Shown piece by piece: positions 34,500 to 53,810 of a stretch of 64,000 nucleotides of DNA; position 1 is the first letter of the stretch; each line of letters begins with the position of its first letter. Origin of the DNA: Bacteroidota bacterium (lineage in GTDB: Bacteria > Bacteroidota > Bacteroidia > Flavobacteriales > Flavobacteriaceae). The notes under the pieces are model-generated. The model ran no database searches. It saw only the letters and a list, made by a program, of their open reading frames with translations, and was not told the origin of the DNA. The position numbers were made by a program, and so were the translations under genes. The stretch spans positions 62,001 through 126,000 of the forward strand of contig JAQCFO010000002.1 in the NCBI GenBank assembly GCA_027619415.1. Reading direction: 5' to 3'.

Positions 34500-37400
34500 A
34501 TGAAAACAAAATTTTTATCCTTAATTATCTTATTTGGATCTTTTATTATGGTAGCTCAAGATGTTACTTTAAATGGATCTGTATTGGATGCATCTACTGA
34601 TGGTCCTTTACCCGGTGTAAGTGTTGTAATTAGCGGTTCTCAATCAGGTACAACTACAGACTTTAATGGAAATTTTAGTCTTAAGGGAGTTTCTATTGGA
34701 GACGTTATTCAATTCTCTTACATTGGTTATATAACTCAAGAAGTTACTATTGGTAATCCACTAAACCTTATGGTTTATCTACAGGAAGATGTCGAATCTT
34801 TAGATGAGGTAATACTTGTTGGTTATAGTAGTCAGAAATCATCTAATATTTCTGGTTCAGTTTCAGTTGTTTCTAGTGATGACGTTGAGAAACTTAAGCC
34901 ACTAAGAGTAGAAGATGCTTTACAAGGTCAAGCTGGGCTTAATGTTATTTCTAGCGGTTCTCCTGGTGGCAAGCCTTCAGTGTTAATAAGAGGGATTACT
35001 TCTTTTTCAGGAACTGATCCTTTAGTTGTTATTGACGGTATTAATTCTTCTTTATTTGATATGGATGCTATTAATCCTGCTAATATTGAAAGTTTAACAG
35101 TTTTAAAAGATGCTTCTACAACTGCTCTTTATGGAGTTAGAGGTGGGAATGGTGTAATAGTTATTACTACAAAATCAGGAAATAAAAATCAAGAAACAAT
35201 TTTTTCATTAGATACTTCATTTGGTATGCAGCATGTTACGAAATATATAAATGTTTTAAATGCTTCACAATATGCAGCTATTTTAAATGAGGGTAGTGTA
35301 TCTTCTGGTGGACCAATACTTTTTTCTGACATTTCAAATTTAGGTGTAGGTACTGATTGGCAAAAAAAATTATTTGAGCCTGCTCCTATTTCGACCACTA
35401 ATTTTTCTGCTTCTGGAGGAGGTGATAAAACAACATATTTTCTTTCTGCAGGTTACACATCACAAGAAGGAGTTGCAGCTGGAGGAGACAAAGACTTTTT
35501 TGATGTAGCAACCTTTACGGCTAACTTTTCTTCTGATATTTCAGATAATTTAAAAGCGATTGTTCATACAAAGTATTCTAATCTTCAAGGAAATGGTCTT
35601 GGTGGAAATCAAATTTTTAATGCTTTAAATTTTGATCCTACTGTTAAACAGATGCCTTTTGAAGCGTATGGAATGAGTAGCACTATTACTCAAGAAGTTA
35701 TCAATCCACTTGCTGGAGTTTCTAACTCATACAGTGATAATAAAACAGATAAATTGATTGGTAAAATAGAATTACAATATCAATTAATGGATAATTTTAA
35801 AATCACTTCTAGACTAGGTTATTCTAGTGTTTGGCAACAACAAAAGGGTTTTACTCCACTTCAATTTTATGGAATAGGACATAATAGAACTAACGCAAAT
35901 ATAGATTTAACACCTAGGACAGAAGATGATCATAACAGAGTTTCTGAAACCAAACAAAATTGGTTTAACTATTCATATGAACTATTTGGGAATTATGATT
36001 TTAGTTTGAACGATGAACATAATTTCAATGTTTTTGCAGGATTTACAATTGGTAAAGGAACAAACAATGGTCTTAGTGGAAGCAATGTTGATGTTCCTTT
36101 TAATTCTTGGACTTATGCAGATTTAAGTTCAGCTTCTGGTGGTATGGAAGATCAATCTACTTCTTCTTGGCAGAGTGTTAGTAGAAGTGTTTCTCTAATG
36201 GGAAGAGTAGAGTATGATTTTCAAGAGAAATATTTAGCTTCTTTAACAGTTAGAAGAGATGGTTCAACAAGTTTTGGAATAAATAATAAGTTTGCAATTT
36301 TCCCTTCTGCATCTATAGGTTGGGTAACATCAAATGAAGAATTCTTCAATTCCTCAACTATTGACTTTTTAAAATTAAGAGCCAGTTACGGAACTGTAGG
36401 TAATGACAATGCTTCTCCTCAATTTGGAACTATTTCAACTTTTCCAAAATACACATTTGGACAAACTATTTATTCAGGATCGACATTATTAGGGATTCCT
36501 AATAATGATGTTTCATGGGAGAATCAAACACAGACAAACATTGGGGTTGATTTAAGAATGTTTGATTCTAAACTTAAATTTACGGCTGATTATTTTATTA
36601 AAACAGTTGATGACTTATTATTTAGTCCAACGTTATCACTTTATTTAGGTATTCCAAGCTATCCAGTAGCAAACATTGGTAAAACCGAAACAAAAGGATA
36701 TGAAATTAGTTTATCGTATGGCGATGAAATCACAGAAAACATAAGTTTCAATACAACGTTTAATTTTACGACTGCTGAAAATTTAGTTAAAGAAATTAAT
36801 AATGGAGATAAGTATATTTGGGGAAGTGGTTACGGAATTCCTTATACTAATTTAACTCAATTTAGACAAGGTGAATCACCTGGTATATTCTGGGGTTATA
36901 AAACTAATGGCATTTTCCAAAATCAAGCTGACGTATCTAATCATGCCACTCAATCAAATGCCCAACCAGGAGATATTAGATTTGTTGACGTTGATGGTAA
37001 TGGAATAATTGATGCTGAAGACAGAACTAAAATAGGAGACCCATTCCCTGACTTTACATTGGGTTGGAATTTTGCTTTAACAGTTTCGGACTTTGACTTG
37101 GCAGTTTTTACTTACGCTTCTGTTGGAAATGATATTTTTAGAGGTTACGAAAGAGGTTTAAACTATACTAACAAATTTGCTTCAGTTTTAAATAGATGGA
37201 CAGGTGAAGGCACCAGCAATTTAGAGCCTAGATATTCTTTTGTAGATGCTAACAATAATAGTAGAGCTTCTGATAGATACGTTGAAGACGGAAGTTTTGT
37301 GAAAATAAAAAATATTCAGTTTGGATATAATTTTCCTGAAACTGCAGCTTCTAAGTTAGGCCTTAGTAGTTTAAGAGTTTATGCTCTTGCTAAAAATGCT

Positions 37401-37535
37401 TTTACATTCACTGACTACACGGGTTATGATCCTGAAATTTCAAACGGTGGAAGTCCAGTCCTTGATACAGGAGTGGATAGAGGAACATACCCTTCTCCAA
37501 GTATTATTTCACTTGGTTTAAATCTTAAATTTTAA
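34500..37535 (+). CDS. SusC/RagA-family TonB-dependent outer membrane receptor
   Basis: Carboxypeptidase-D-like N-domain, TonB plug VEDALQGQAGLNVISSGSPGGKPSVLIRGITSFSGTDPLVVIDGI, TTALYGVRGGNGVIVITTKSG. Confidence 0.97.
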   Translation: MKTKFLSLIILFGSFIMVAQDVTLNGSVLDASTDGPLPGVSVVISGSQSGTTTDFNGNFSLKGVSIGDVIQFSYIGYITQEVTIGNPLNLMVYLQEDVESLDEVILVGYSSQKSSNISGSVSVVSSDDVEKLKPLRVEDALQGQAGLNVISSGSPGGKPSVLIRGITSFSGTDPLVVIDGINSSLFDMDAINPANIESLTVLKDASTTALYGVRGGNGVIVITTKSGNKNQETIFSLDTSFGMQHVTKYINVLNASQYAAILNEGSVSSGGPILFSDISNLGVGTDWQKKLFEPAPISTTNFSASGGGDKTTYFLSAGYTSQEGVAAGGDKDFFDVATFTANFSSDISDNLKAIVHTKYSNLQGNGLGGNQIFNALNFDPTVKQMPFEAYGMSSTITQEVINPLAGVSNSYSDNKTDKLIGKIELQYQLMDNFKITSRLGYSSVWQQQKGFTPLQFYGIGHNRTNANIDLTPRTEDDHNRVSETKQNWFNYSYELFGNYDFSLNDEHNFNVFAGFTIGKGTNNGLSGSNVDVPFNSWTYADLSSASGGMEDQSTSSWQSVSRSVSLMGRVEYDFQEKYLASLTVRRDGSTSFGINNKFAIFPSASIGWVTSNEEFFNSSTIDFLKLRASYGTVGNDNASPQFGTISTFPKYTFGQTIYSGSTLLGIPNNDVSWENQTQTNIGVDLRMFDSKLKFTADYFIKTVDDLLFSPTLSLYLGIPSYPVANIGKTETKGYEISLSYGDEITENISFNTTFNFTTAENLVKEINNGDKYIWGSGYGIPYTNLTQFRQGESPGIFWGYKTNGIFQNQADVSNHATQSNAQPGDIRFVDVDGNGIIDAEDRTKIGDPFPDFTLGWNFALTVSDFDLAVFTYASVGNDIFRGYERGLNYTNKFASVLNRWTGEGTSNLEPRYSFVDANNNSRASDRYVEDGSFVKIKNIQFGYNFPETAASKLGLSSLRVYALAKNAFTFTDYTGYDPEISNGGSPVLDTGVDRGTYPSPSIISLGLNLKF

Positions 37536-37546
37536 AAATATATCAC

Positions 37547-39013
37547 ATGAAAAATAAATTTTTTAATAACATTTTAATTGTCATTCTTTCTTTAGGTTTT
37601 TTTAGCTGTGAAGATTACGTTGACTATGAAGCATCTGAAGGATATACTATCGTTGCAGATGATTATTTTAAAACTTCTGCTGATTATGAAGCAGCTTTGA
37701 TTGGAACTTACGACGTTCTTCAATGGAATATTTATAGTATAATGATTGGAGATATAGCTTCTGACAACTCATTATGCGGTGGAGAAAGTGCTACTGATGT
37801 TGTTGGATTACAAAAAATCGATGACATGATTCATGATCCAGTTAACGATCAATTAACTTCAACTTGGAAATGGATGTATGAAGGCATTAATAGAGCTAAC
37901 TACTTAGTTGAAAATAAAGATAAAATGCAGTTTTCTAGAAAAGCTGAGCTTTATGGAGAAGTAGAATTTTTAAGAGCTTATTTTTATTTTGAACTAGTTA
38001 AAATTTTTGGTGATGTTCCGTTATTTACTACATCAAGATTAACTGCAGGAGATTCTGCTACTTTATCAAGATCTCCAAAAGCAGATGTTTATTCTCAAAT
38101 TGAGAAAGATTTACAAGCAGCTATAGCTGTACTCCCAGCTTCAAAAAGTACAGATGGTAGAGCTACTTCTTTTACTGCTCATGCTTTACTTGGTAAAGTT
38201 TATCTATATCAAAATAAATTTGATGAGGCAGCTAATATTTTAGAGCCTTTGATTGGACTTTACACGCTTCCTGATAATCCGCAAGATGTGTTTTTAACAT
38301 CGGGTGAAAATGGACCTGAGGCTGTTTTTGAAGTGCAACATTCTAAAAATTCTAACTGGTGGGATTGGGGATTTCCTCAAGGATCTGAAGGAAGTTTTGG
38401 TATTATTCACCACGGAATTAGAGGATATAACGGTACGGTTTACGCTGCAGGATGGAGTTTTAACCTTCCTTCCAAAGATCTTTTTGATGCTTATGCTAAT
38501 GGAGACAAAAGAAAGAAAACAGCCGTATTAGATATAGTTGCTTGGGCAGCTGAAACTGGAGCAGAATATACATCTGCGTATGAACACACAGGATATTATA
38601 ATCATAAATATATTCCAAGAGCTGGTTCGAGTGCTGCTCAACAAGAATTGAATTATGAAAATAATTATAGAGCGATTCGATATGCGGATGTTCTATTAAT
38701 GGCTGCTGAAGCTAATAACAGAAAATCGAATTCAGAGGATACTAAAGCTCAAAATTATTTAAATCAAGTTAGAGCTAGAGCATTTGGAGATGATTCAAAA
38801 GCTTCTTCTTCCACAGGAACTGCTTTAACTAGTGAAATTTGGGAAGAAAGAAGATTAGAGCTAGCTATGGAAGGTCACAGATTTTTTGATTTAGTAAGAA
38901 CAGGAGAAGCTTCTACTAAAATATCAGGCTTTGTTGCTGGAAAGCATGAAGTATTTCCAATTCCTCAAACAGAAATTGATATTTCTGGGTTAATTCAAAA
39001 TTCAGGATACTAA
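37547..39013 (+). CDS. RagB/SusD-family nutrient-binding outer membrane lipoprotein
   Basis: Lipobox SC, GEVEFLRAYFYFELVKIFGDVPLFT, RYADVLLMAAEAN, EERRLELAMEGHRFFDLVRTG. Confidence 0.96.
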   Translation: MKNKFFNNILIVILSLGFFSCEDYVDYEASEGYTIVADDYFKTSADYEAALIGTYDVLQWNIYSIMIGDIASDNSLCGGESATDVVGLQKIDDMIHDPVNDQLTSTWKWMYEGINRANYLVENKDKMQFSRKAELYGEVEFLRAYFYFELVKIFGDVPLFTTSRLTAGDSATLSRSPKADVYSQIEKDLQAAIAVLPASKSTDGRATSFTAHALLGKVYLYQNKFDEAANILEPLIGLYTLPDNPQDVFLTSGENGPEAVFEVQHSKNSNWWDWGFPQGSEGSFGIIHHGIRGYNGTVYAAGWSFNLPSKDLFDAYANGDKRKKTAVLDIVAWAAETGAEYTSAYEHTGYYNHKYIPRAGSSAAQQELNYENNYRAIRYADVLLMAAEANNRKSNSEDTKAQNYLNQVRARAFGDDSKASSSTGTALTSEIWEERRLELAMEGHRFFDLVRTGEASTKISGFVAGKHEVFPIPQTEIDISGLIQNSGY

Positions 39014-39030
39014 TTTTATAAATAAATAAT

Positions 39031-41568
39031 ATGAAAAAAATAAATAAAATATTTACATTTTTTTTCTTGATCACAGCCTTTATTGGTTGTCAAGAGGATT
39101 TTTTGGAGGAAGTTGATTTTGTAATCGAAGCTCCTGCAAACGTTACTGCTAATTTTGTAATTACTCAAGATAATACAGGTTTAGTAACCATTACTCCTCA
39201 AGCAGAAGGAGCTACTAGTTTTGTCATTAATTCTTTTGGTGATGGCTCTTCAGATGCAGCTAATGATATTATGCCTGGCACAAGTGTTAGTCATACTTAT
39301 ACTGAAGGCACATTTGATGTTAGTTTAACGGCCAATGGACTTAATGGATTAAAGACATCTGCTACTGTGCCATTAACAGTTTCTTTCAGAGCACCAGAAA
39401 ATTTAACTTTAATACTAGCACCTGAAGCATTAACTCTTACGGTTTCAGCTAAAGCTGATTTTGCAACTTATTTTCACGTATACTTTGGAATAGAAGGAGA
39501 AGATCCTGTTGAGTTAGCTGTTGATGGATCGGTAAATTATACTTATCCAACTGGAGGTGATTATGATGTAAAAGTTATTGCTTTTAGTGGTGGCTCTGCT
39601 ACAACTGAAAAAACAGAAACGGTAACTATGTTTACAGAAACCTTATTGCCTGTAGACTTTGAGAGTTTTGACACGAATGTTTTTATAAGTTTTGGAGGAA
39701 CAAGTAATAGTGTTATCGACAATCCTGATTCATCTGGAAATTCATCAGCTAAAGTTGGAAAAGTTGTTAAAGGAGCTGGAGAAACTTGGGCAGGAAATGT
39801 CATTACAACTACTAATCCAATAAAAGATTTATCTATAAAAAATCAAATTAAAGTTAAGGTTTGGTCTCCTAGAGCCGGAGGAACTATGACGATGAAACTA
39901 GAAAACATCGATGATGCCGCTGTAAACAGCGGAGAAATTTCAGCAACTTTATCTGGAAATAAAGGTTGGGAAGAGGTTATTTTTGATATGAGTGCTATTG
40001 ATTCATCTAAAGAATATAGAAAAATAGTTTGGTTCTTTGATTTAGGAACTATGGGTGAAGGTGGTGATGACTGGACTTTTTATGTTGATGATTTTTCACA
40101 AGATGCAAAAGTTACAGAACCTTTAACAGCAGCTCCTAAACCACTTGCTCATCCAGACAATGTAGTTTCAATTTTTAGTAACCAGTATACTAATGTAAAT
40201 GTGTCTGAGTGGAATCCTAATTGGGGTCAATCAACAACATTAGAAACTGTCAAAATTGAGGGTAATGAAACTCTTTTATATCAAAACTTAAATTATTCAG
40301 GTTTGGTAACTAACTACGATCCTGGCACAGCTCTTACAGGTAAAACTTATGTTCATTTTGATTATTGGACAGTAGACGCAACCAAGCTAGGCTTAAAATT
40401 AGTTAATACAGCTTATGGTGATGGAGATCCTAAAAAAGAAGCGCTTGTTTCTGTTGATGCTATTACAAAAGGGGAGTGGGTAAGTGTAGATATTCCACTT
40501 TCTGACTACACAAATGACACTGCTAAGTTCATGCAGTTAGTTTGGGATGGTAGTGCCTCAAAAATTTGGATAGATAATCTATATTTCTATAACTTACCAT
40601 CAGATGCTCCTGCTGCTGCTGCTGCTGCACCTTCGGTTGCTTCAGATGACGTTATTTCTATTTATAGCGATAGTTATACTAATGAAAATGTGTCTGAGTG
40701 GAATCCTGACTGGGGTCAATCAACAACACTAGAAACGGTAACTATTGACGGGAATAATATTTTAAAGTATTCTAATTTAAATTATTCAGGTTTAGTTACT
40801 AATTACGATCCTGGTACAGATATCAGTTCTATGAACTATGTTCATTTTGATTATTGGACTAAGGATGCTACAAAACTTGGTTTAAAGCTAGTCAACACTG
40901 CTCATGCAAATAATGATGAAGGAAAAAAAGAAGCGCTTGTTTTTGCACCTGCAATAGTTAAGGGTGGTTGGGTAAGTGTAGATATCCCGCTTTCTGATTA
41001 TACTAACGACACTGCTAAGTTCATGCAATTAGTTTGGGATGGTAATGGTACGGTTTACATAGACAATTTATACTTCTATGAGAACAAACCAACTGTAGCT
41101 CCTGCAGCACCATCAGCTGCTGCTTCTGATGTTACTTCAATTTTTAGTGATAGTTATACTAATGAAAATGTGTCTGAGTGGAATCCTGACTGGGGTCAAT
41201 CAACAACACTAGAAACAGTAACTATTGATGGGAATAGTATATTAAAGTATTCTAATTTAAATTATTCAGGTTTAGTTACTAATTACGATCCTGGAACAGA
41301 TATTTCTACTAAGACTCACGTTCATTTTGATTATTGGACGCCAAATTCATCAAAACTTGGTTTAAAGCTAGTTAACACTGCTCATGCAGATAATGATGAA
41401 GGGAAAAAAGAAGCGCTTGTTTTGGTTAGTTCTGTTAACAAAGGTGGTTGGGTAAGTGTAGATATCCCGCTTTCTGATTATACTAACGACACTGCTAAGT
41501 TCATGCAATTAGTTTGGGATGGTAATGGTACGGTTTACATAGACAATTTATATTTTGTTAAAAAATAA
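39031..41568 (+). CDS. Surface glycan-binding lipoprotein: two PKD-like domains, one CBM-like domain, three tandem CBM-like repeats
   Basis: Lipobox IGC; three copies of VSEWNPxWGQSTTLETV...YSGLVTNYDPGT...DYW...LGLKLVNTA...SVDIPLSDYTNDTAKFMQLVWDG...IDNLYF. Confidence 0.85.
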   Translation: MKKINKIFTFFFLITAFIGCQEDFLEEVDFVIEAPANVTANFVITQDNTGLVTITPQAEGATSFVINSFGDGSSDAANDIMPGTSVSHTYTEGTFDVSLTANGLNGLKTSATVPLTVSFRAPENLTLILAPEALTLTVSAKADFATYFHVYFGIEGEDPVELAVDGSVNYTYPTGGDYDVKVIAFSGGSATTEKTETVTMFTETLLPVDFESFDTNVFISFGGTSNSVIDNPDSSGNSSAKVGKVVKGAGETWAGNVITTTNPIKDLSIKNQIKVKVWSPRAGGTMTMKLENIDDAAVNSGEISATLSGNKGWEEVIFDMSAIDSSKEYRKIVWFFDLGTMGEGGDDWTFYVDDFSQDAKVTEPLTAAPKPLAHPDNVVSIFSNQYTNVNVSEWNPNWGQSTTLETVKIEGNETLLYQNLNYSGLVTNYDPGTALTGKTYVHFDYWTVDATKLGLKLVNTAYGDGDPKKEALVSVDAITKGEWVSVDIPLSDYTNDTAKFMQLVWDGSASKIWIDNLYFYNLPSDAPAAAAAAPSVASDDVISIYSDSYTNENVSEWNPDWGQSTTLETVTIDGNNILKYSNLNYSGLVTNYDPGTDISSMNYVHFDYWTKDATKLGLKLVNTAHANNDEGKKEALVFAPAIVKGGWVSVDIPLSDYTNDTAKFMQLVWDGNGTVYIDNLYFYENKPTVAPAAPSAAASDVTSIFSDSYTNENVSEWNPDWGQSTTLETVTIDGNSILKYSNLNYSGLVTNYDPGTDISTKTHVHFDYWTPNSSKLGLKLVNTAHADNDEGKKEALVLVSSVNKGGWVSVDIPLSDYTNDTAKFMQLVWDGNGTVYIDNLYFVKK
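40162..41562 (+). repeat. Three tandem domain-sized repeats (starts 40162, 40651, 41131; periods 489 and 480 bp)
   Basis: Long near-identical DNA blocks, e.g. gtgtctgagtggaatcctgactggggtcaatcaacaacactagaaac in copies 2 and 3. Confidence 0.92.
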
Positions 41569-41589: not shown

Positions 41590-42468
41590 ATGAAAAAAAT
41601 AAAATTTTTATTTAAATCAGTTTTCATTTTAGCTACTCTTACTCTAGTAAGTTGTGAAGAAGAAAACTATGAATTTGGTGCTATAGTTGCTCCATCTAGT
41701 GTTAACATTACTGCTGAAATAGTAGGTGTTGATGAGGCTAACCCTAATGGAGATGGAAGCGGAACAGTTCACTTTAATGTAAGTGCAGATAACGCATTAA
41801 ATTATAAGCTGTTATTTGATGGGACTGAAACAATGGTGCCTTCAGGACAACACACAATGAATTTTAGTGTTACAGGTACTCATATTTATGTTGTAACTGC
41901 TGTTGCAATCGGAACAGGTGGGACTACTTCGATGAAATCTATTGCTGTAAAGGTTTTCGCGAATTATTCGCCTCAACCAGAATTTTTAACTAACCTTACT
42001 AGTAATTCTTCAAGAACATGGAGGTTAAATACAGATGTTGGTGGACATGTTGGAGTTGGACCTGCAGATTCAACCTCTCCAATTTGGTATTCCGCAGATC
42101 CAAATAGTAGAGCAAGTTATGGATCAGATGATGATACTTGGACATTTAGTTTAACAGGAAAAGGATATACTCATACAACAAACGGAGGATGTGCTGTGAA
42201 ATTCGAATATGCAGGTGATGTTGGTGGTACTGATGACCCAGTAGATAATACTCACTCAAATTTCCCTGTTGAAAATTACTCTGGAACATGGAATGTTGCA
42301 GCTCCTGGAGGAGTAGAAGTATTAACATTTTCTGGAATTGGTCATGTAGCATTGTATACTGGAACACATGACTATACGATTGTATTTCCAACTAGTAATA
42401 CCATGGAACTTACTACTACTGATGATTTAGGTAGAAAATGGTATTTCAAACTAATAGCAGTTGATTAA
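41590..42468 (+). CDS. PUL surface lipoprotein (PKD-like domain + SKTWR-type beta domain), SGBP candidate
   Basis: Lipobox VSC; TAEIVGVDEANPNGDGSGTVHF...NSSRTWRLN...DDTWTFSLTGKGYTH...LTFSGIGHVALYTGTHDYTI; located between SusD and GH16. Confidence 0.75.
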   Translation: MKKIKFLFKSVFILATLTLVSCEEENYEFGAIVAPSSVNITAEIVGVDEANPNGDGSGTVHFNVSADNALNYKLLFDGTETMVPSGQHTMNFSVTGTHIYVVTAVAIGTGGTTSMKSIAVKVFANYSPQPEFLTNLTSNSSRTWRLNTDVGGHVGVGPADSTSPIWYSADPNSRASYGSDDDTWTFSLTGKGYTHTTNGGCAVKFEYAGDVGGTDDPVDNTHSNFPVENYSGTWNVAAPGGVEVLTFSGIGHVALYTGTHDYTIVFPTSNTMELTTTDDLGRKWYFKLIAVD

Positions 42469-42588: not shown

Positions 42589-44196
42589 TTGAAACTAGTA
42601 TTAAAATTATTTTTTCTTATAAATATTTTTACTTTCTGCTCTAGTGGAGATTCAGACGGTGGAGATGGATCAGGGCCCGTTGATCCGCCTACTGAAATTA
42701 AGCCATTAAACTTACAATTGACAGCTATTATAGTTGGTTCAGATTCTAATAACCCAAACGGAGATGGTTCAGGAACAGTTAAGTTTACTGCGACTGCAAC
42801 TAATGCTGTTTCGTATAGCTTTAGGTTTGGAACCGGAGATTCTAAAACTAGTACAGGATCTACTGATTACACATATAAAGAAGTTGGAACTAAAACATAC
42901 AATATCAAGGTAATCGCCTACTCTTCTACTAGTCATTATATTAGTGTGGATAAAACAATTACTGTTTATGTTAAACCTGAATCTGAGCAAACTCTTTTAG
43001 AATTATTAGCAGGTAGTTCATCTAAAACCTGGCGAATTAACTCTGCTCAAGATGCTCATTTTTCTAATGGTGTTCAAGATAAGCGATATTCAACTTATTG
43101 GGAAGCTTATGCTTTTTCTAAATCAAATACTGGGTTTTACGATGATGAATATACTTTTAATATTAATGGAACTTATTCTCACAAAACAAACGAAACTGTA
43201 TTTGGAAAGGGCCACCATCTAAATGATGATTTTGGCTATACTTCCCAATCACCAAATGGCGATGGTGATATAGAGAATTATCCACTAAATAATTATCAAA
43301 CAACATTTTCAGCAAAAAAAGAAGATGATCTTGATAAAATTGAATTTGACGATAAAGGTTTTGTTGGTTTTTATGTTGGAGAGCATAGTTATACAATAGA
43401 ATGCCATGATTCAGAAAATATTTATTTAAGAACAGTTGATGACCAGGATATTGCTTGGTATGTATGGCTTACCACTAACACTGTTTCAAGTACTAGTCCT
43501 AGGGATCAATTTTCTAGTTTAGTTTGGTCTGATGAATTTGATTACGAAGGTGCCATTGACTCTGATAAATGGGTTCATGAAGTTGGGGATAGTTGGTATA
43601 ATAATGAAGTTCAATCTTACACAAGTAGATTAGATAATTCTAAAGTGGAAGATGGAAAATTAAAAATCATAGCTAAAAAGGAATCTTATAATGGAAATAA
43701 TTATACTTCCGCTAGAATTATTTCTAATACTAAAAAAGATTTTACTTATGGAAGAGTTGATATAAAGGCGAAAATTCCTGGAAAAAAGGGAGCCTGGCCA
43801 GCGTTATGGCTATTAGGCTCGAATTTCAGAACGGTTACTTGGCCTGCGTGTGGAGAAATAGACATTTTAGAAGCGGCTCAGTCAAATAATTTTAAAGTTC
43901 AATCTACAGTACATCATCCTGATAATTATGGTGCAGGTGATTCTCATATTAGTAATGATTATAATGATATCACTGAATTTTTTCATGTTTATTCACTTGT
44001 TTGGACTAAACAGGCACTAACATTTTATGTTGATGACAAGCCACATCATATAGTTGGAAATTCTTGTGCTCTCCCATTTAATTGGAATCAGTTTATCATT
44101 TTAAACGTTGCCATGGGAGGAACTATGGGAGGCGAAATTGCACCTGATTTTGACAATGATATAATGGAGATTGAATATGTGAGAATTTATCAATAG
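42589..44196 (+). CDS. GH16-family beta-glucanase (laminarinase-like) with N-terminal SGBP-like module
   Basis: C-terminal GH16: LVWSDEFDYEGAIDSDKW, WPALWLLG, GEIDILEAA (ExDxxE), VHHPDNYGAGDSH; TTG start, lipobox FCSS. Confidence 0.92.
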   Translation: MKLVLKLFFLINIFTFCSSGDSDGGDGSGPVDPPTEIKPLNLQLTAIIVGSDSNNPNGDGSGTVKFTATATNAVSYSFRFGTGDSKTSTGSTDYTYKEVGTKTYNIKVIAYSSTSHYISVDKTITVYVKPESEQTLLELLAGSSSKTWRINSAQDAHFSNGVQDKRYSTYWEAYAFSKSNTGFYDDEYTFNINGTYSHKTNETVFGKGHHLNDDFGYTSQSPNGDGDIENYPLNNYQTTFSAKKEDDLDKIEFDDKGFVGFYVGEHSYTIECHDSENIYLRTVDDQDIAWYVWLTTNTVSSTSPRDQFSSLVWSDEFDYEGAIDSDKWVHEVGDSWYNNEVQSYTSRLDNSKVEDGKLKIIAKKESYNGNNYTSARIISNTKKDFTYGRVDIKAKIPGKKGAWPALWLLGSNFRTVTWPACGEIDILEAAQSNNFKVQSTVHHPDNYGAGDSHISNDYNDITEFFHVYSLVWTKQALTFYVDDKPHHIVGNSCALPFNWNQFIILNVAMGGTMGGEIAPDFDNDIMEIEYVRIYQ

Positions 44197-44224: not shown

Positions 44225-47200
44225 ATGACTAATAGTAAAATATATTTAGGAAATACAGAAGCTCATCTTTCTAAAAAAGAAGTTAATGGAGAGTTGACAA
44301 CAATACAAGGCGAAGAGTTTTATAAAATTTCTAACGTTGATTCGATGCGTCCTTTTTTTATGAGCATTGTAAGTAATTCTAACCATTGGATGTTTATATC
44401 AAGCACAGGAAGTTTGTCGGCAGGAAGAAAGAATAGTGATTCAGCTTTATTTCCTTATTATACTGACGATAAAATTACGGAATCTGAAGAAGTTACAGGT
44501 AGCAAAACCTTATTACTTGTTTCAAAAAGTGACAAAACATTTCTTTGGGAGCCTTTTTCTAGAAAACTTAGTAGTATATATAAATTAACACGAAACCTTT
44601 ATAAAAACTCAATAGGTAATAAAATAATTTTTGAAGAAATTAATCACGATTTAGAATTGAAATTTTCTTATCAATGGAATTTAAGTGATAAGTATGGCTT
44701 TGTTAGAAAATCGAATATAACGAATAATGGATCATCAGATGTTGAGTTAGGTTTACTGGATGGGATACAAAATATTGTTCCAAGTGGGGTTAATGAAGAA
44801 CTTCAAAATAGATCTAGTAATCTAGTTGATGCTTATAAGAAGTGTGAGCTTGAAACCGACACAGGGCTAGGTGTTTACTCTTTAAGCGCTATTATAGTTG
44901 ATAAGGCTGAACCTAGTGAAGCTTTAAAAGCTAATACTGTATGGTCTTATGGTTTAGAAAATACTAAGTATTTACTTTCTTCTTTACAAATTGAAAATTT
45001 TAGAAGAGGAGAAGAATTAATACAAGAAGAAGACATTAGAGCTGAAAAAGGAGCTTATTTCCTCAACACAACATTAAAACTTCCTAAAAATAAATCAAAA
45101 AATTGGTTTATAGTAGCTAATTTAAATCAAACAGCTTCTGATTTAGTTTATATAAAAGAAATTATTAAAAAGAATTCAAGTGTAGCGGAACATGTTGAAA
45201 ATGACATTCAATACGGATCAAAAAATTTAATAGAAATAGCAGGGTCCTGTGATGGAATTCAAATGTCTTTTGATAAGCTTAGAAATATTCGTCACTTTTC
45301 TAACACCATATTTAATGTAATGCGTGGAGGAATTATTGATAATAATTATCAAATTGAAAAGTCTGATTTTATTCCATACATAGCCAAAGCAAATAAAAAA
45401 GTATATAATGATAATGTTAATACACTAAATACTCTTCCAATCCTATTTTCTTTAGAAAACCTGAAACTTCATTACTTAAATAATGACGACACTGATTTTG
45501 AGCGTTTATGTTTGGAATATTTGCCTTTAAAATTTAGTAGAAGGCATGGAGACCCTAGTCGTCCATGGAATAAATTTTCAATAAATACTAAGAGTGAATA
45601 CGATGGATCTAAAATTTTAGATTACCAAGGGAATTGGAGAGATATATTTCAGAATTGGGAATCATTAGCGCATTCTTATCCAGAATTTATTGATGGGATG
45701 ATTCATAAATTTTTGAATGCTACTACATTTGAGGGTTACAACCCTTATAGAGTTACTAAAGACGGCTTTGACTGGGAAACGGTAGAGCCTGACAATCCTT
45801 GGGCTTATATTGGCTATTGGGGAGATCATCAAATTATTTATCTTCTTAAATTTTTAGAATTTATTGAAGATTATTACCCTAGTAGACTGTTAAATTACTT
45901 TTCGAAAAATGTATTTGTATATGCTAATGTTCCTTATAAAATAAAAAGTTATGAAGAGATTTTAGTGGATTCTAAAAATACTATTGATTTTGATCACGAA
46001 AACGAAAAGAAAATTCAAAATAATAGGAAAGAAATAGGAGTAGATGGAGCTCTTTTAAAGGATCCTGGCAATAATATTTATAAAGTAAATTTTATTGAAA
46101 AGATTTTAGCTACTGTTTTATCAAAACTTTCAAACTTTATTCCTGAAGGAGGTATATGGATGAATACTCAACGACCTGAGTGGAATGATGCTAATAATGC
46201 GTTAGTAGGAAATGGCGTATCAATGGTAACGCTTTATTATTTAAGAAGGTTTTTAAACTTTTTTGATAAGACTCTTAATAAGAGTAAGATTGATAAGGTC
46301 AGTATCTCTTTAGAATTGTTTAATTTTTATAATGAAATTCACACGGCTTTTCAGGATAATAAACACCTTCTTTCAAAAGACATTTCCGATATTGATCGCA
46401 AAGTCATATTAGATCTTCTTGGAAAGGCAGGAAGTATTTACAGAAATAACATTTATAATGATGGGTTTTCATTAGGTAAGCAAAATTTATCAATAGAAGA
46501 ATTAAAAAGTTTTATTAAAATTTCTTTAGCATTTTTAGATCATTCTATTTTGGCTAATAAAAGAAAGGATAACCTATACCACGCTTACAATTTAATGTCA
46601 CTACAAGAAAATGGTAAGGTAATTATTTCAAGTTTACCAGAAATGTTAGAAGGTCAAGTAGCGATATTAAGCTCAGGATACCTATCAGCAAGCGAAAGTT
46701 TAAAAGTGTTGGATAGTTTAAAGCAAAGTAAATTATTTAGAAAAGATCAATCTAGCTACACCTTATACCCTAATAAAGATTTAGGTCGCTTTATTGACAA
46801 AAATAATATTGTTAAAGAGAATGTTCTAAAGTCAACTTTATTACAAAAGTTAATTGAAGATGGTAATACTCAAATTATTAATAAAGATTTATTGGGTGGA
46901 TACCATTTTAATGGAAATTTCAATAACGCAAACTGTTTAATGAAAGCTTTAAAAAGGCTTCCTGATCATTATAATAGTCTTGTAAAAAATGAGATGTCAA
47001 AAATTCTTCAAATTTTTGAGCAAGTGTTTGATCATAAATCCTTCACAGGAAGATCAGGAACGTTTTTTGGATATGAAGGTTTGGGATCTATTTATTGGCA
47101 TATGGTTTCAAAGCTTTTATTAGCAGTACTTGAAGTCATCAAATCAGCTATTCAGCAAAATGAAGATAAAGCAATAGTTAATAAGTTAATTGATCATTAT

Positions 47201-47692
47201 TTTGAAATTAACGATGGAATTGGAGTAAAAAAATCTCCTGAATTATATGGGGCTTTTCCAACAGATCCTTATTCGCACACTCCAGAAGGAAAGGGGGCGC
47301 AACAACCCGGGATGACAGGTCAAGTAAAAGAGGACTTGTTAAGTAGGTTTGGAGAACTAGGTATTCAAATTGACAAGGGAGTAATTTGCTTTAACCCTGA
47401 AATTTTAAAAAATGAAGAGTTTTTAAATAAGACTCAAATATTTAATTATATAAATCTTGATAAAAAAAGTAGCTCAATTAAGCTAGAAAAGAACTCATTA
47501 GGATTTACATATTGTCAAGTCCCCATTATATATCAAAAGTCAACTGCTTCAAAAATCACAGTTTATTTAAATAATGGAAAATCTATTGAATTTAATGGCA
47601 AAAAGCTAAATGATAAAATAAGTTCTAAAGTTTTTAAAAGAACAGATGAAGTGAATAAGATTGTAGTATTTGTTGTTAAAAATCATTTTTAA
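44225..47692 (+). CDS. Candidate cytoplasmic inverting glycoside phosphorylase (GH94/GH149/GH161-like), beta-1,3-glucan phosphorylase candidate
   Basis: No signal peptide; WMFISSTGSLSAGRKNSDSALFPYYTDDKI, QGNWRDIFQNWE, NPWAYIGYWGDHQIIYLLKFLE, RPEWNDANNALVGNGVSM (cf. GH94 DWNDG catalytic Asp block); laminarin-PUL context. Confidence 0.65.
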   Translation: MTNSKIYLGNTEAHLSKKEVNGELTTIQGEEFYKISNVDSMRPFFMSIVSNSNHWMFISSTGSLSAGRKNSDSALFPYYTDDKITESEEVTGSKTLLLVSKSDKTFLWEPFSRKLSSIYKLTRNLYKNSIGNKIIFEEINHDLELKFSYQWNLSDKYGFVRKSNITNNGSSDVELGLLDGIQNIVPSGVNEELQNRSSNLVDAYKKCELETDTGLGVYSLSAIIVDKAEPSEALKANTVWSYGLENTKYLLSSLQIENFRRGEELIQEEDIRAEKGAYFLNTTLKLPKNKSKNWFIVANLNQTASDLVYIKEIIKKNSSVAEHVENDIQYGSKNLIEIAGSCDGIQMSFDKLRNIRHFSNTIFNVMRGGIIDNNYQIEKSDFIPYIAKANKKVYNDNVNTLNTLPILFSLENLKLHYLNNDDTDFERLCLEYLPLKFSRRHGDPSRPWNKFSINTKSEYDGSKILDYQGNWRDIFQNWESLAHSYPEFIDGMIHKFLNATTFEGYNPYRVTKDGFDWETVEPDNPWAYIGYWGDHQIIYLLKFLEFIEDYYPSRLLNYFSKNVFVYANVPYKIKSYEEILVDSKNTIDFDHENEKKIQNNRKEIGVDGALLKDPGNNIYKVNFIEKILATVLSKLSNFIPEGGIWMNTQRPEWNDANNALVGNGVSMVTLYYLRRFLNFFDKTLNKSKIDKVSISLELFNFYNEIHTAFQDNKHLLSKDISDIDRKVILDLLGKAGSIYRNNIYNDGFSLGKQNLSIEELKSFIKISLAFLDHSILANKRKDNLYHAYNLMSLQENGKVIISSLPEMLEGQVAILSSGYLSASESLKVLDSLKQSKLFRKDQSSYTLYPNKDLGRFIDKNNIVKENVLKSTLLQKLIEDGNTQIINKDLLGGYHFNGNFNNANCLMKALKRLPDHYNSLVKNEMSKILQIFEQVFDHKSFTGRSGTFFGYEGLGSIYWHMVSKLLLAVLEVIKSAIQQNEDKAIVNKLIDHYFEINDGIGVKKSPELYGAFPTDPYSHTPEGKGAQQPGMTGQVKEDLLSRFGELGIQIDKGVICFNPEILKNEEFLNKTQIFNYINLDKKSSSIKLEKNSLGFTYCQVPIIYQKSTASKITVYLNNGKSIEFNGKKLNDKISSKVFKRTDEVNKIVVFVVKNHF

Positions 47693-48990
47693 TGACAATT
47701 GGATTAAATAATAATAAAATGAAAGATATCTTAGGATATAACGTTGTGTTGCTATTATCAATTAGCATTTTATTTTTCTCATGTGAAAACAAAAAAGAGT
47801 TAAGTATAGGAGATAAATCAGCATCTGAAATCTTAGGGAATTCAAGTTATTTAGCAATTTCTTATGGGGGTTATCGCGAAAAAACTCGTGATATTCAGCC
47901 TACAATTTCTGAGTTGAAAGAGGATCTTAAAATTTTATCTGCCATGGGAGTGAAAATTTTAAAAACCTATAATTTACAATTAGAACAAGCCCCAAATATT
48001 TTAAAAGCAATTAGAGAGTTAAAAACAGAAGATTCATCTTTTGAAATGTATGTTAAATTAGGCGCTTGGATTGATTGTGAAAACGCATGGACTTCAAGCC
48101 CTAATCATGATAAAGGAGATGAGTCTGCTAACTCGATTGAAATTCAAAAAGCAATAAGTTTAGCAAATAGATATCCAGATATTGTAAAAATTATTGCTGT
48201 AGGAAATGAAGCGATGGTTCATTGGGCATCGAGTTATTATGTACAGCCTTCAGTTATTTTAAAATGGGTAAATCATCTACAAGATTTAAAAAATAAAAAT
48301 AAACTTCCCAAAACCCTTTGGATAACAAGCTCAGATAATTTTGCATCTTGGGGAGGGGGAGACTCTTCTTATCACACAAAAGATCTGACTGCTCTTATTA
48401 ATGCAGTAGATTATGTTTCTATGCATACATATGCATTTCATGACACTCATTATAATTCAAGCTTTTGGAAATTAAGGGAAAAGGATAAAAAACAATTTTC
48501 AGATTTCGATCTAATAGAAAAATCCATGGAAAATGTTTACCTCCATGCTGTTAGTCAATATAATAGTGTTAAAAATTACATTGATAGTCTTGGAATTAAT
48601 AAGCCAATTCACATTGGAGAACTAGGATGGGCTACAGTCTCTAGTGACTTGTATGGCAAAAATGGAACTCATGCAGCTGATGAATTCAAGCAAGCTATAT
48701 ATTACAAGAGAATGCGTGAATGGACTAATAAAGAAGAAATTTCTTGTTTTTATTTTGAAGCATTTAATGAGCATTGGAAAGACGGAAATCCAAATGGTTC
48801 AGAAAATAATTTTGGATTATTTACAGTTGATGGAAAAGCAAAATATGCTCTTTGGGATAGTGTAGATAAAGGAGTCTTTAAAGGATTGACTAGAAACGGA
48901 AATTTTATAAAAAAAACATATAACGGGGTTTTGGAAAATTTACAAAAAGATGTATTAATCCCCGCAGAAACAAAATCAAATCAAAATTAG
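47692..48990 (+). CDS. GH17-like glucan beta-1,3-glucosidase, lipoprotein
   Basis: Lipobox FSCEN; IIAVGNEAMVHW (acid/base NE) and PIHIGELGWAT (nucleophile E). Confidence 0.82.
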   Translation: MTIGLNNNKMKDILGYNVVLLLSISILFFSCENKKELSIGDKSASEILGNSSYLAISYGGYREKTRDIQPTISELKEDLKILSAMGVKILKTYNLQLEQAPNILKAIRELKTEDSSFEMYVKLGAWIDCENAWTSSPNHDKGDESANSIEIQKAISLANRYPDIVKIIAVGNEAMVHWASSYYVQPSVILKWVNHLQDLKNKNKLPKTLWITSSDNFASWGGGDSSYHTKDLTALINAVDYVSMHTYAFHDTHYNSSFWKLREKDKKQFSDFDLIEKSMENVYLHAVSQYNSVKNYIDSLGINKPIHIGELGWATVSSDLYGKNGTHAADEFKQAIYYKRMREWTNKEEISCFYFEAFNEHWKDGNPNGSENNFGLFTVDGKAKYALWDSVDKGVFKGLTRNGNFIKKTYNGVLENLQKDVLIPAETKSNQN

Positions 48991-48996
48991 AAATAA

Positions 48997-50004
48997 GTGA
49001 AAATAATTAATCTATTTATAGTCTTCGTTTCAATTATATTAAATGAAGGTACGGTCTATCACGATAATAAAACAGATAAAGTAACAACGTCAAACAGACA
49101 ATTATTAGTTAATAATGTTCCTTATTTTATAAAAGGAGTTTGTTATCATCCTGTCCCAAAAGGAAGTACTAAAAGAAGCTTTAGTAAAATAGATCAAGAT
49201 CTTAACTTAATGGGAGAGGCAGGAATTAATACTATTAGAGTTTACGAACCAATTGATCAGATTGAGATCCTAAATAAAATTGACCAAGCTGGAATTAAAG
49301 TAATTATAAGTTTTGGATTTAATCAAGGAGGTAATTATGATATTTATTCTGGAACTTTTATTGATTATATAAATAAATTTAAAAATCATAATGCTATTTT
49401 GTTTTGGGAATTAGGTAATGAGTACAACTATCATCCTGAATGGTTTGGCGGTGATTTGAAAAATTGGTACGATGAACTTAATAAATCTGCACTTATAATT
49501 AAAGAAAATGATAAAAATCATCCTGTAGCTACAGCACATGGAGAATTACCTAATTCAAAAGCTTTAAGCTCTAATCCTAATATAGATATTTGGGGATTAA
49601 ACGTTTATAGGTGGGATGATCCTTCTACAATTTTTAAGCAATGGGAATTATTAAGTGATAAGCCAGTTTATCTTTCTGAATCAGGTGCAGATAGTTATAT
49701 GACTATCGAAAAAGATGGTTATTCTAAAGGAGAAAATCAAAAAGCACAAGCTGATGCAAATTCTAAAATAATTGATGCTGTCTTTCAAAATTCTGATATT
49801 GTTTCTGGGCTGTTTATTTTTTCATTTTTAGATGGCTTATGGAAGGCTGGGAACCCGGATAAACAAGATGTTGGCGGATGGGCCCCTAACAGTATGGGGA
49901 TTCCATATGATGGCGCTCCAAATGAAGAATTTTGGGGGATTTTGGATATAGAAAGAAATAAAAAAGAAACATTTAACGTATTAAAGGAAAAGTTTAACAA
50001 ATAA
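48997..50004 (+). CDS. Clan GH-A TIM-barrel glycoside hydrolase (GH2/GH5/GH72-like, family unresolved)
   Basis: FIKGVCYHPVPKGS, AGINTIRVYEP, FWELGNEYNYHPEWFGG, PVYLSESGADSY, PNEEFWGILDIERN; GTG start. Confidence 0.7.
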   Translation: MKIINLFIVFVSIILNEGTVYHDNKTDKVTTSNRQLLVNNVPYFIKGVCYHPVPKGSTKRSFSKIDQDLNLMGEAGINTIRVYEPIDQIEILNKIDQAGIKVIISFGFNQGGNYDIYSGTFIDYINKFKNHNAILFWELGNEYNYHPEWFGGDLKNWYDELNKSALIIKENDKNHPVATAHGELPNSKALSSNPNIDIWGLNVYRWDDPSTIFKQWELLSDKPVYLSESGADSYMTIEKDGYSKGENQKAQADANSKIIDAVFQNSDIVSGLFIFSFLDGLWKAGNPDKQDVGGWAPNSMGIPYDGAPNEEFWGILDIERNKKETFNVLKEKFNK

Positions 50005-50068
50005 AATAATAAAAAACAGTGATAAATCTTAAAGTAATTCAAGTGATTGTTATTAAAACTAATAAAAC

Positions 50069-51493
50069 ATGATGAATTCTAGTTCAGATCCGCTAATCAA
50101 GGTTCCAATGAATCAAAAGATTGCTTTTGGTTTTGGTATGCTTGCAAATCAAATGTTTCCAGCTTTAATAGGTATTTTTATTGTGGTGCTAGTTCAGAAT
50201 TTGGGGTTTCCTGGATGGATGTGGGGTGTGGTATCTCTAGCTCCAAGATTTTTCGATTCTATCACCGATCCAATCATGGGCTTTATTTCAGATAATACAA
50301 AATCTAAATGGGGACGACGAAGACAGTATGTTTTTATTGGCTCAATAATAATGGGAATTTCTTTCATAATTATGTGGCAGTTATATGTAAATAATGGAGT
50401 CGACTATAATTTTGTATATTTTTTATTTTGGTCCTTTATTTTTTATCTAGGCTATACTATTTATAGTGTGCCTTACGTTGCTATGGGTTATGAGATGAGT
50501 GATAACTTTCATGAACGCACCAACATAATGGCTGTTGCTCAGTGGATTGGACAATGGGCATGGGTTATAGCACCATGGCTTTGGGTAATCATGTATGATA
50601 ATAGTTTGTTTGAATCTGCTGAAGCTGCAGTAAGAGAGTTAGCGGTTTGGGTTGGAATAGCTTGTATGATTTTTGCGATGATTCCTGCAATATTTATAAA
50701 GAGTGAATCTACTCTAAAAAAAGATTACGTGCCATTAACTATCAAAAATATCGGAGGAAGTTTGAAAGAAATTAGAAATGGGTTTGTAGAAGCATTTAAG
50801 TCTAAACCATTTAGAAAACTTTGCATTTCGACTTTTTTCATTTTTAATGCTTTCAACACTGTTGCAGGTTTTACATTTTTTATTATTGTTTATTATTTAT
50901 TTAATGGAAATGCTGGCGATGCGAGTATTTGGCCTACATTATTTGGAAGTTGTGGCGCTTTAATCACTACTTTTTTAGTTATTCCTATAGTTACATTAAT
51001 GTCAAAAAAATTAGGTAAAAAGAAAGCGTTTTTAATTTCTCAGAGCATATCTATTGTCGGATATATAATGTTTTGGTTTTTGTTTATTCCTGGAAAGCCC
51101 TACATGTTTTTATTTGCCTTACCATTTTTCTCTTTTGGGATAGGAGGATTATTTACTTTAATGATGTCAATGACTGCTGATGTAATTGACTTAGATGAGC
51201 TTAATACAGGTAAAAGACGAGAAGGGATTTTTGGAGCTATTTATTGGTGGATGGTAAAATTTGGCTTTGCTATTGCTGGAGGCTTATCTGGAGTAATTCT
51301 CTCATTAGTTGGATTTACTTCAGGCGCAGTAACACAACCTGAAGAAGCTATAATCGGACTACGTTTATTTTTTTCAGGGTTACCAATACTTGGAACCTTA
51401 ATTGCTATTTATGTGATGAGAGACTACGAAATTACAGAAGAAAAAACGATAGAAGTTTCTAAAATTTTAAAAAATAGAAAGATAAACAAATAG
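50069..51493 (+). CDS. MFS/GPH-type sugar transporter
   Basis: DSITDPIMGFISDNTKSKWGRRRQYVFIGSIIMG; TM-rich; last gene of PUL. Confidence 0.92.
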   Translation: MMNSSSDPLIKVPMNQKIAFGFGMLANQMFPALIGIFIVVLVQNLGFPGWMWGVVSLAPRFFDSITDPIMGFISDNTKSKWGRRRQYVFIGSIIMGISFIIMWQLYVNNGVDYNFVYFLFWSFIFYLGYTIYSVPYVAMGYEMSDNFHERTNIMAVAQWIGQWAWVIAPWLWVIMYDNSLFESAEAAVRELAVWVGIACMIFAMIPAIFIKSESTLKKDYVPLTIKNIGGSLKEIRNGFVEAFKSKPFRKLCISTFFIFNAFNTVAGFTFFIIVYYLFNGNAGDASIWPTLFGSCGALITTFLVIPIVTLMSKKLGKKKAFLISQSISIVGYIMFWFLFIPGKPYMFLFALPFFSFGIGGLFTLMMSMTADVIDLDELNTGKRREGIFGAIYWWMVKFGFAIAGGLSGVILSLVGFTSGAVTQPEEAIIGLRLFFSGLPILGTLIAIYVMRDYEITEEKTIEVSKILKNRKINK

Positions 51494-51565: not shown

Positions 51566-51590
51566 TTAAATTAAATTAAATTAAATTAAA
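51566..51590 (+). repeat. Pentanucleotide microsatellite (TTAAA)x5 abutting a start codon
   Basis: ttaaattaaattaaattaaattaaa followed by tg of ATG at 51590. Confidence 0.9.
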
Positions 51591-52084
51591 TGAGATTTTT
51601 TTTGATAATTTTATTATTGTTGGTTTCTTGCTCTAAATCAGTAAAGAAAACAGAACCAACGATTAAGACAATTAATTATTTAAAATTGAATTCTTTTGTT
51701 AAAGATTCTTTACCTATTTTTCTTGATTTAGATTCTCAATACAATCAAGTATTTAATTTATGGGGAGATATTGATGTGTTGAAAAAAGCTTCTACACTTT
51801 CAAAGATTGATACAAGACAATTACTGTATTTTATAGAACCCTATAGTTTAGAAATAGATAAAATTAATGAAATTCATATCCCTACTGTTTTAAATACCCC
51901 ATCAATAATTGGTAGATTGAGAGTTTTTAAAACAGACGTATTGAAAATCGACACTAAAGAAGATCTAAATAATAATAACTTAAAAGATTTTAAAGAGAAT
52001 CTTTTAAAAATAACAGATTCTTATAATGCACTAATTAGAAGAATGAATGCAGTTGCAAAGGAAAGCGTTGAGATTAATAATTAA
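51590..52084 (+). CDS. Hypothetical lipoprotein
   Basis: MRFFLIILLLLVSCSKS lipoprotein signal; no family recognised. Confidence 0.7.
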   Translation: MRFFLIILLLLVSCSKSVKKTEPTIKTINYLKLNSFVKDSLPIFLDLDSQYNQVFNLWGDIDVLKKASTLSKIDTRQLLYFIEPYSLEIDKINEIHIPTVLNTPSIIGRLRVFKTDVLKIDTKEDLNNNNLKDFKENLLKITDSYNALIRRMNAVAKESVEINN

Positions 52085-52121: not shown

Positions 52122-53810
52122 TTATTCCTTTAATTGTTTTGATTCGTTGAGCTTTGCAAGCTGAAGTTCAATTTCTTGATCTTCAATTTTTCTAAAAAGT
52201 AATGAGCTTTTTTCAATTTTATAAGAAACTATCGGAGAATCTTTAGAAATAGAGCTCCATTCAATACTCTTTATATTGAAGATTGTTTTAAGTTTTTCAG
52301 ATGTATTAGGCAAAAAAGGCTCGCAAACCAAACCTAGAACACCACAGATTTGCAAACTAATGTTCATTATAGTTTTTACCTTTTCAGAATCCTCTGTTTT
52401 AATTAATTTCCAAGGCTCTTCGTCAGCAAGATATTTGTTACCTAACCTTGCTAAATCAATAATGATATTAACAGCTTCTCTAAACTTGAATTTGTCAATA
52501 GAATCACCGATTTTCTTTGGAAAAGAATATATTTCACTGATTAAATCTTGTTCCTTATCATTTAAAGCTCCAATTGAAGGAACTTTACTGGCATAATATT
52601 TTTGAGTTAATACAACTACTCTATTTATAAAGTTTCCTAAAATAGCCACTAATTCATTATTGTTTTTAGCTTGAAAATCTTTCCAAGTAAAGTCATTGTC
52701 TTTATTTTCTGGAGCATTAGCTGTTAAGACGTATCTTAAAGTATCTTGCATTTCAGGAAAATCTTCCATATACTCATGAAGCCAAATTGCCCAATTTTTT
52801 GATGTAGATATTTTCTTTCCTTCTAAGTTCAAAAATTCATTAGCTGGAACATTAGTTGGTAAAATATATTTGTTTGAAGCTTTTAATATTGATGGGAAAA
52901 TAATACAATGAAATACAATATTGTCTTTGCCTATGAAATGCACAAGCTCTGTTTTGGGATCTTGCCAGTAAGGCTTCCAATCAATTTTTTCTCTTTTAGC
53001 CCACTCTTTTGTAGCTGAAATATATCCAATTGGTGCATCAAACCAGACATATAACACTTTTCCTATTGCCTCTTTAATGGGAACAGGAATTCCCCAATCT
53101 AAATCTCTAGTAATGGCGCGAGGCTTTAAACCTTCTTGTATCCATGATTTAACTTGACCGAAAACATTTGATTTCCACTCATCTTTTTTTTCAATTAAAA
53201 ACCATTCTTTTAAAAAAGGTTCAAAGTTATTTAATGGTAAGAACCAGTGTTTGGTTTTCTTTAATGTAGGTTTATTTCCACTTAATTTAGATCTAGGATT
53301 TATTAGCTCGTTAGGATTAAGCGTTGATCCGCAGTTTTCACATTGATCTCCGTAAGCACCATCAAAATTACATTTAGGACATTCCCCTTCAACAAATCTG
53401 TCAGCCAAAAACTGTTTTTCTGAAGCATCGTATAGTTGGTCAGATTCTTTTTCGATAAAAATATTCTTATCATTTAAATCTTTAAAAAACCCTGAAGCAG
53501 TTTCGTGATGAATTTTTGAAGAAGTTCTAGAGTAATTATCAAAAGAAATTCCAAAATTAATAAAGGATTCTTTTATGATAAAATGATATTTGTCAATAAT
53601 ATTTTGAGCAGTAGTCCCCTCTTTTTTTGCTCTAATAGGAATTGCAGCTCCGTGTTCGTCACTTCCACAAACAAAACAAACATCATGCCCTGAAAGCCTT
53701 AGATATCTAGAATATATATCTGCTGGAATATAAGCCCCAGCTAAATGGCCAATGTGTATAGGTCCATTTGCATATGGCAAGGCTGATGTAATGGTGTATC
53801 TTTTTTTCAC
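52122..53810 (-). CDS. metG: Methionyl-tRNA synthetase (short form without C-terminal tRNA-binding domain)
   Basis: [44 protein letters not shown], zinc-knuckle cysteines [18 protein letters not shown]. Confidence 0.95.

Follow-up and report, generated by a model that had tools for sequence, protein, structure and literature searches.

The window, a 64,000-nucleotide stretch of a Bacteroidota genome, holds a co-directional cluster in which SusC/D, GH16, GH149, GH17 and MFS genes make up the variant 1 laminarin PUL gene set. Judged from its predicted gene products, the cluster at 44225-51493 is a laminarin PUL of an already published kind. The features are as follows.

31447..34260, + strand: Y_Y_Y/LuxR-type putative PUL regulator, 937 aa (PF07495, 6.2e-10; PF00196, weak)
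34500..37535, + strand: SusC-like TonB-dependent outer-membrane importer (sequence and position; copy in relative L033 90% identical)
37547..39013, + strand: SusD-like lipoprotein (sequence and position; 19-homologue tree)
39031..41568, + strand: PKD-domain lipoprotein, 845 aa, probable surface glycan-binding protein (PF00801, 3.6e-6)
41590..42468, + strand: 292-aa PUL lipoprotein (kept between SusD and GH16 in relatives)
42589..44196, + strand: GH16 lipoprotein, predicted endo-beta-1,3-glucanase (laminarinase) (PF00722, 2.1e-22; PDB 4bq1, 6.4e-54)
44225..47692, + strand: predicted GH149 beta-1,3-glucan phosphorylase, 1155 aa, without signal peptide (NF058639, 1772.6 bits; PDB 6hq6)
47692..48990, + strand: GH17 lipoprotein, relative of FbGH17A (PDB 6fcg, 6.2e-166, 555.8 bits; PF00332, 2.9e-7)
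48997..50004, + strand: secreted 335-aa GH2/GH158-like TIM-barrel candidate glycosidase (PF02836, 2.7e-10; alignment; Foldseek)
50011..50067, + strand: 57-nt 3' remnant of a GH30 beta-glucosidase gene lost by deletion (43/57 positions agree with the L033 GH30 tail)
50069..51493, + strand: GPH-type MFS symporter, predicted inner-membrane oligosaccharide importer (PF13347, 1.1e-67; TIGR00792)
51590..52084, + strand: 164-aa lipoprotein (lip164), right edge of the exchangeable segment (neighbour order across genomes)
52122..53810, - strand: MetG, right chromosomal flank common to GH3-type and GH149-type loci (tblastn of flanks)

A preliminary description of this DNA had noted a signal-less 1155-aa ORF between a GH16 and a GH17-like lipoprotein, in a PUL with an MFS importer. 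All of these genes are present as described, and the GH17 start overlaps the GH149 stop (at 47692). The best PDB match of the GH16 protein, 4bq1, is an endo-1,3-beta-glucanase, and its closest solved relatives are of the same type. PDB 6FCG, matched by the GH17 protein, is the Formosa laminarinase FbGH17A (PMC6246565). The symporter reached 186 bits against TIGR00792, under the cut-off of 231. Note that the GH16 and GH17 products might, instead of laminarin, be mixed-linkage glucans or beta-1,3-glucans of another kind.

The GH149 phosphorylase

The 1155-aa protein matched the NCBIfam GH149 equivalog NF058639 over residues 17-1150, far above the cut-off of 1150 bits, and was matched end to end by Pro_7066 (PDB 6hq6; 1559.3 bits over 1149 residues). 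The active site of Pro_7066 comprises RD 470-471, WND 651-653 and H959 (PMC6771811). The corresponding residues here, R472-D473, W653-N654-D655 and H959, are invariant in 81 homologues; R472, D473 and H959 are the predicted phosphate/Glc1P residues, and D655 is the predicted catalytic residue. Together with the two full-length matches, these correspondences identify the ORF as a GH149 enzyme whose predicted activity is that of a beta-1,3-glucan phosphorylase. Both motif blocks singled out initially are in place: RPEWNDANNALVG begins at residue 650, that is nt 46172 as given, and QGNWRDIFQNWE begins at nt 45626, within one codon of the earlier figure of about 45629. GNWRDI begins at residue 469.

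The preliminary description had pointed to resemblance with GH94, GH149 and GH161 phosphorylases, and HMM searching bore this out for GH149, at a level well outside the reach of chance. Pfam contained no family model matching the ORF. Likeness to GH161 was remote only (chain 9qqk, 9.8e-13), and membership of GH94 was rejected, as neither a Pfam family nor a clear GH94 chain came up to threshold. Chain 9h8v, named cellobiose phosphorylase, matched only remotely (1.8e-12), at the level of the GH161 chain. The N-terminus is not hydrophobic (maximum 12-residue Kyte-Doolittle value -0.16, versus a median of 2.8 for GH17 lipoproteins), and the enzyme is probably cytoplasmic.

The GH149 reaction is reversible, and in vitro Pro_7066 builds oligosaccharides that reach DP 11 (PMC5827456), so that GH149 might be thought to run in reverse in vivo, making beta-1,3-oligosaccharides from Glc1P for storage or export. 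The gene, however, belongs to an operon for import and breakdown that also encodes endo-glucanases and SusC/D. Moreover, the phosphorolytic direction is normally the one favoured by cytoplasmic phosphate. We regard synthesis as the most improbable of the readings considered here and proceed with GH149 as a degradative enzyme.

GH30 and other glucosidases

GH149 is carried by 52 of the 151 genomes of the family. From 80 named GH149 loci, the 63 with at least 8 kb downstream were used for neighbour counts. MFS was present in 63/63, GH17A in 59/63, GH30 in 53/63 and GH17B in 52/63, whereas a GH2-like gene was found in 15/63 and GH3 in only 13/63. Thus, GH30 normally works alongside GH149, and the proposal that GH149 replaces GH30 was rejected on the ground of their coexistence. 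FbGH30 has been reported as a debranching enzyme that removes beta-1,6 branches (PMC6246565).

In the window, the space between the GH2-like gene and MFS retains the GH30-like 3' end listed above, whose alignment score was reached in 0/2000 shuffles. In L127, a second genome of the genus, the remnant lies at the same junction and is clearer (55/68; composition-matched null 0/300). A 5' remnant in this gap was not above chance (1941/2000 shuffles reached the score). L033, the nearest relative by GH149 (92%), retains GH30. GH30 was lost from this genome by a separate deletion that left a scar. In the GH16 tree the window pairs with L033 as its nearest neighbour, yet the scar is common to the window and L127. 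The MFS proteins of L033 and L127 agree with one another at 93% identity, but that of the window reaches just 70% against either. These relationships indicate that this end of the cassette has recombined.

The genome that contains the window was checked family by family; its assembly comprises 1.66 Mb in 61 contigs and is 86% complete. At that completeness it contained no GH1, no GH30 at the locus or elsewhere, and no BglX-type GH3. Its GH17 count is one, the PUL copy. The sole GH3 (L002) is NagZ-like, with the NagZ motif KHFPGHGDTSTDSH and a beta-lactamase domain; its best NCBIfam match is beta-N-acetylhexosaminidase at 148 bits, below the cut-off of 207, with 102 bits for BglX. As far as the incomplete assembly allows, neither the PUL nor the genome thus appears to encode a GH1, a GH30 or a beta-glucosidase-type GH3, in agreement with the initial statement that the PUL lacks a beta-glucosidase. 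Phosphoglucomutase-type proteins were found. A search of this 86% complete genome for glucokinases, covering the ROK and Glk families, returned none.

The 335-aa protein has a hydrophobic N-terminus, with a lipobox in its relatives. Across 16 relatives Glu142 and Glu228 do not vary; they are expected to serve as the clan-A acid/base and nucleophile. The nearest Foldseek matches of its AlphaFold2 model (mean pLDDT 81) were GH158, GH2 and GH157 structures (TM 0.55-0.69), with GH158 and GH157 structures among them solved with laminari-oligosaccharides, and a profile search gave a GH158 hit (1.9e-15 over 168 positions). This secreted, clan-A-like candidate glycosidase could have exo activity, releasing glucose; with GH30 gone, it might, speculatively, carry out whatever trimming or debranching is still required.

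GH149 might then be an accessory salvage enzyme, most glucose being freed in the periplasm by the GH2-like enzyme or an unseen beta-glucosidase and imported as glucose. Such a role would be compatible with the signal-type N-terminus of the GH2-like relatives, with the presence of both clan-A glutamates and with nearest folds that include the beta-1,3-glucan-active GH158 and GH157. However, the solved fold relatives are remote (about 20% identity) and include endo-acting families, and the search described above, in an incomplete assembly, found no ROK or Glk glucokinase for free glucose. We consider an accessory role unlikely and prefer GH149 phosphorolysis as the end of the pathway.

The GH3 and GH149 sites within the genus

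GH149 is present in 10 of the 22 genomes of the genus, in only 3 of them at this site. The other 7 carry it at a second locus, where GH30 and GH17B accompany it if the contig extends far enough to show them. A BglX-like GH3 was found in 0/10 GH149-positive versus 8/12 GH149-negative genomes (Fisher p = 0.0017, uncorrected for relatedness, although the counts are phylogenetically non-independent), and none of the genus genomes had a second, BglX-like GH3 beside GH149.

In 6 of the 8 BglX-bearing relatives the GH3 occupies the same PUL or the same slot on the chromosome. The gene order in L141 is SusC-SusD-PKD-PKD-GH16-GH3-lip164-MetG-ACT-Mfd-GNAT, with GH3 where GH149-GH17A-GH2like-MFS stands in the window; an additional gene on the reverse strand precedes MetG. 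L139 and L143 have the right flank through Mfd in common with the window, and flanking genes place their GH3 at the same site. The downstream genes lip164-MetG-Mfd thus put GH3 at the exact window site in three genomes (L139, L141 and L143), where lip164 adjoins GH3; in the window, L033 and L127 it adjoins MFS on the 3' side. L140, L142 and L145 have a GH16-GH3 arrangement in common. The GH3 proteins of L141 and L143 scored 763.7 and 754 bits against BglX (cut-off 666) and start with lipoprotein-type signal sequences. An SSS-family sodium symporter adjoins GH3 or the neighbouring GH16 in 4 genomes (family match run on the copy of L139 alone).

Both the GH16 and the MetG tree join the GH3-bearing L139 to the GH149-bearing clade as its sister (support 94/93 and 94/94), and further GH3-bearing genomes fall outside the two. 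This topology suggests, with moderate support, that GH3 is the older state at the site. No remnants of the GH149 cassette were found in GH3-type loci, nor of GH3 in GH149-type loci; the exchange thus left no detected scar apart from that of GH30. The cassette had no match among phage records and no mobile context was seen; plasmid matches were distant homologues (<60% identity).

The window and most of its relatives are metagenome genomes with fragmented contigs, in which GH30 absence and GH3 exchange could in principle arise as assembly or binning artefacts. This is highly improbable, as the GH30 scar lies at an identical junction in two genomes (the window and L127) and in five (L033, L139, L141, L143 and the window) the GH3-type or GH149-type locus runs uninterrupted through MetG, in four of these to the end of Mfd as well.

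By same-site comparison inside the genus, the predicted GH149 therefore stands in for GH3 only: of the earlier proposal that it replaces GH3/GH30, the GH3 half holds and the GH30 half does not. The comparison suggests that hydrolysis in the periplasm and phosphorolysis in the cytoplasm have been exchanged for one another. On balance we favour a reading in which, within this one genus of marine Flavobacteriaceae with small genomes, a hydrolytic end (a BglX-type GH3 in the periplasm, beside an SSS sugar symporter in some of the genomes) and a phosphorolytic end (GPH symporter and cytoplasmic GH149) were swapped at one site between GH16 and lip164-MetG, never both being found. The GH149 clade would later have lost GH30, possibly becoming reliant on phosphorolysis, since the window's genome had no ROK or Glk glucokinase detected in it. 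In the GH149 and laminarin-PUL literature compared, we found no description of the GH30 deletion scar or of the same-site GH3/GH149 exchange in one genus.

Predicted pathway and relation to known systems

Very probably, 44225-51493 represents a laminarin PUL in its phosphorolytic form, with the GH149 cassette and BglX-type GH3 as alternative ends of one pathway. In the proposed scheme, surface GH16 would cut laminarin, SusC/D would take up the pieces, and periplasmic GH17, perhaps also the GH2-like enzyme, would trim them. We infer that the GPH/MFS symporter moves laminari-oligosaccharides into the cytoplasm. There GH149, using inorganic phosphate, would convert an oligosaccharide to alpha-glucose-1-phosphate and a shorter chain, and phosphoglucomutase would pass Glc1P on as Glc6P into glycolysis without glucokinase ATP. 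The predicted ATP saving per n-mer is n-1 compared with hydrolysis followed by glucokinase.

Laminarin is among the ocean's most abundant sugars. A same-site exchange of hydrolase and phosphorylase in otherwise near-identical loci amounts to a natural experiment, which lets one ask directly whether phosphorolysis brings small, fast bloom bacteria a measurable gain in energy or uptake. The GH2-like enzyme, kept in a lineage that has lost its GH30, stands out as a target for characterisation.

The phosphorolytic laminarin pathway is not new, and both enzyme and pathway were correctly identified from the raw sequence in the preliminary description. GH149 in flavobacterial laminarin PULs is known biology, published in 2018: it has been reported in Bacteroidetes PULs (PMC5827456) and in a Formosa laminarin PUL (PMC6246565). 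Variant 1 laminarin PULs of bloom MAGs with GH149 are highly expressed (PMC10108472), and GH3 takes the place of GH149 in some Muricauda laminarin clusters (PMC13188888).

The ORF resembles Pro_7066 (PDB 6HQ6/6HQ8; PMC5827456, PMC6771811) over its full length, in domain length and in the RD/WND/His site, and both proteins are without a targeting peptide. At the surface site, Pro_7066 has E990 and Y993 where the ORF has D990 and F993, and E994 is kept; changes of the D990 and F993 type are common among the 81 relatives (34/81 and 15/81, respectively). Laminaribiose is phosphorolysed by Pro_7066, which uses acceptors from Glc to G6 about equally well (PMC5827456); therefore, one GH149 could finish the chain. 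The GH161 and GH94 beta-1,3-glucan phosphorylases have the (alpha/alpha)6 clan and reaction type in common with GH149, and GH161 works only on acceptors of DP>=2 (PMC6484121).

At the level of the locus, variant 1 PULs (Formosa, PMC6246565; bloom MAGs, PMC10108472; Muricauda, PMC13188888) share the SusC/D, GH16, GH149, GH17A and MFS block with the window. They usually also carry GH30_1, GH17B and an MFS-GH17 fusion, whereas the window locus is without all three and has a GH30 scar only. The GH3+GH16 laminarin PUL, variant A (PMC6794258), has the same SusC/D-PKD-GH16 chassis and, within the genus, the same chromosomal site. It ends in a BglX-type GH3 lipoprotein, adjoined by an SSS symporter in some genomes, whereas the window locus ends in GH149 and a GPH symporter.

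GH3 at the site of the GH149 cassette, and symporter genes near GH3

Judging from the flanking genes, the chromosomal site of the GH149 cassette of the window is the site of a BglX-type GH3 in three stretches from genomes of the same genus (L139, L141 and L143). The flanks comprise lip164 (a 164-aa lipoprotein gene), MetG, an ACT-domain protein and Mfd, and in L139 and L141 also GH16.

L139:9588-11876, BglX-type GH3 lipoprotein
L141:9500-11785, BglX-type GH3 lipoprotein
L143:9383-11683, BglX-type GH3 lipoprotein
L139:6594-8264, SSS-family sodium symporter (PF00474, TIGR00813), close to GH3

Equivalents of the symporter also lie close to GH3 in L137, L138 and L143, and it is a plausible candidate for the glucose importer of the hydrolytic, GH3-terminated form of the PUL. 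Neither ROK (PF00480) nor Glk (PF02685) glucokinase was detected in the window's own genome (86% complete assembly), nor was Glk among 22 genomes of the genus. The single GH3/beta-lactamase gene of the window's genome (L002:1372-3564) ends early within a poly-A stretch (KKKKKN), possibly through a frameshift or assembly error.

Possible GH5 remnants beside lip164

L033:18705-19590, frameshifted GH5 pseudogene (PF00150), between MFS and lip164
L141:11785-12024, C-terminal tail resembling the L033 pseudogene (AATTYYWRVKTSDG...), between GH3 and lip164

The similarity suggests common descent of the two loci from one that formerly carried GH5.

Second GH149 location and variation within the cassette

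Seven same-genus genomes (L123-L126, L128-L130) carry GH149-GH17A-GH2like-GH30-MFS-GH17B at a second location, some of these clusters being truncated by contig or region ends; SusC/D was absent from the stretches read.

The GH2-like protein of the window (window:48997-50004) lacks the lipobox cysteine that most relatives have (LNEG at this position, LSES in L033), and therefore may be soluble or anchored in another way.

The MFS genes of L033 and L127 share 93% identity, but the window's MFS gene (window:50069-51493) is only 70% identical to either of them, whereas the adjoining genes are 84-93% identical. This sequence pattern indicates recombination within the cassette.
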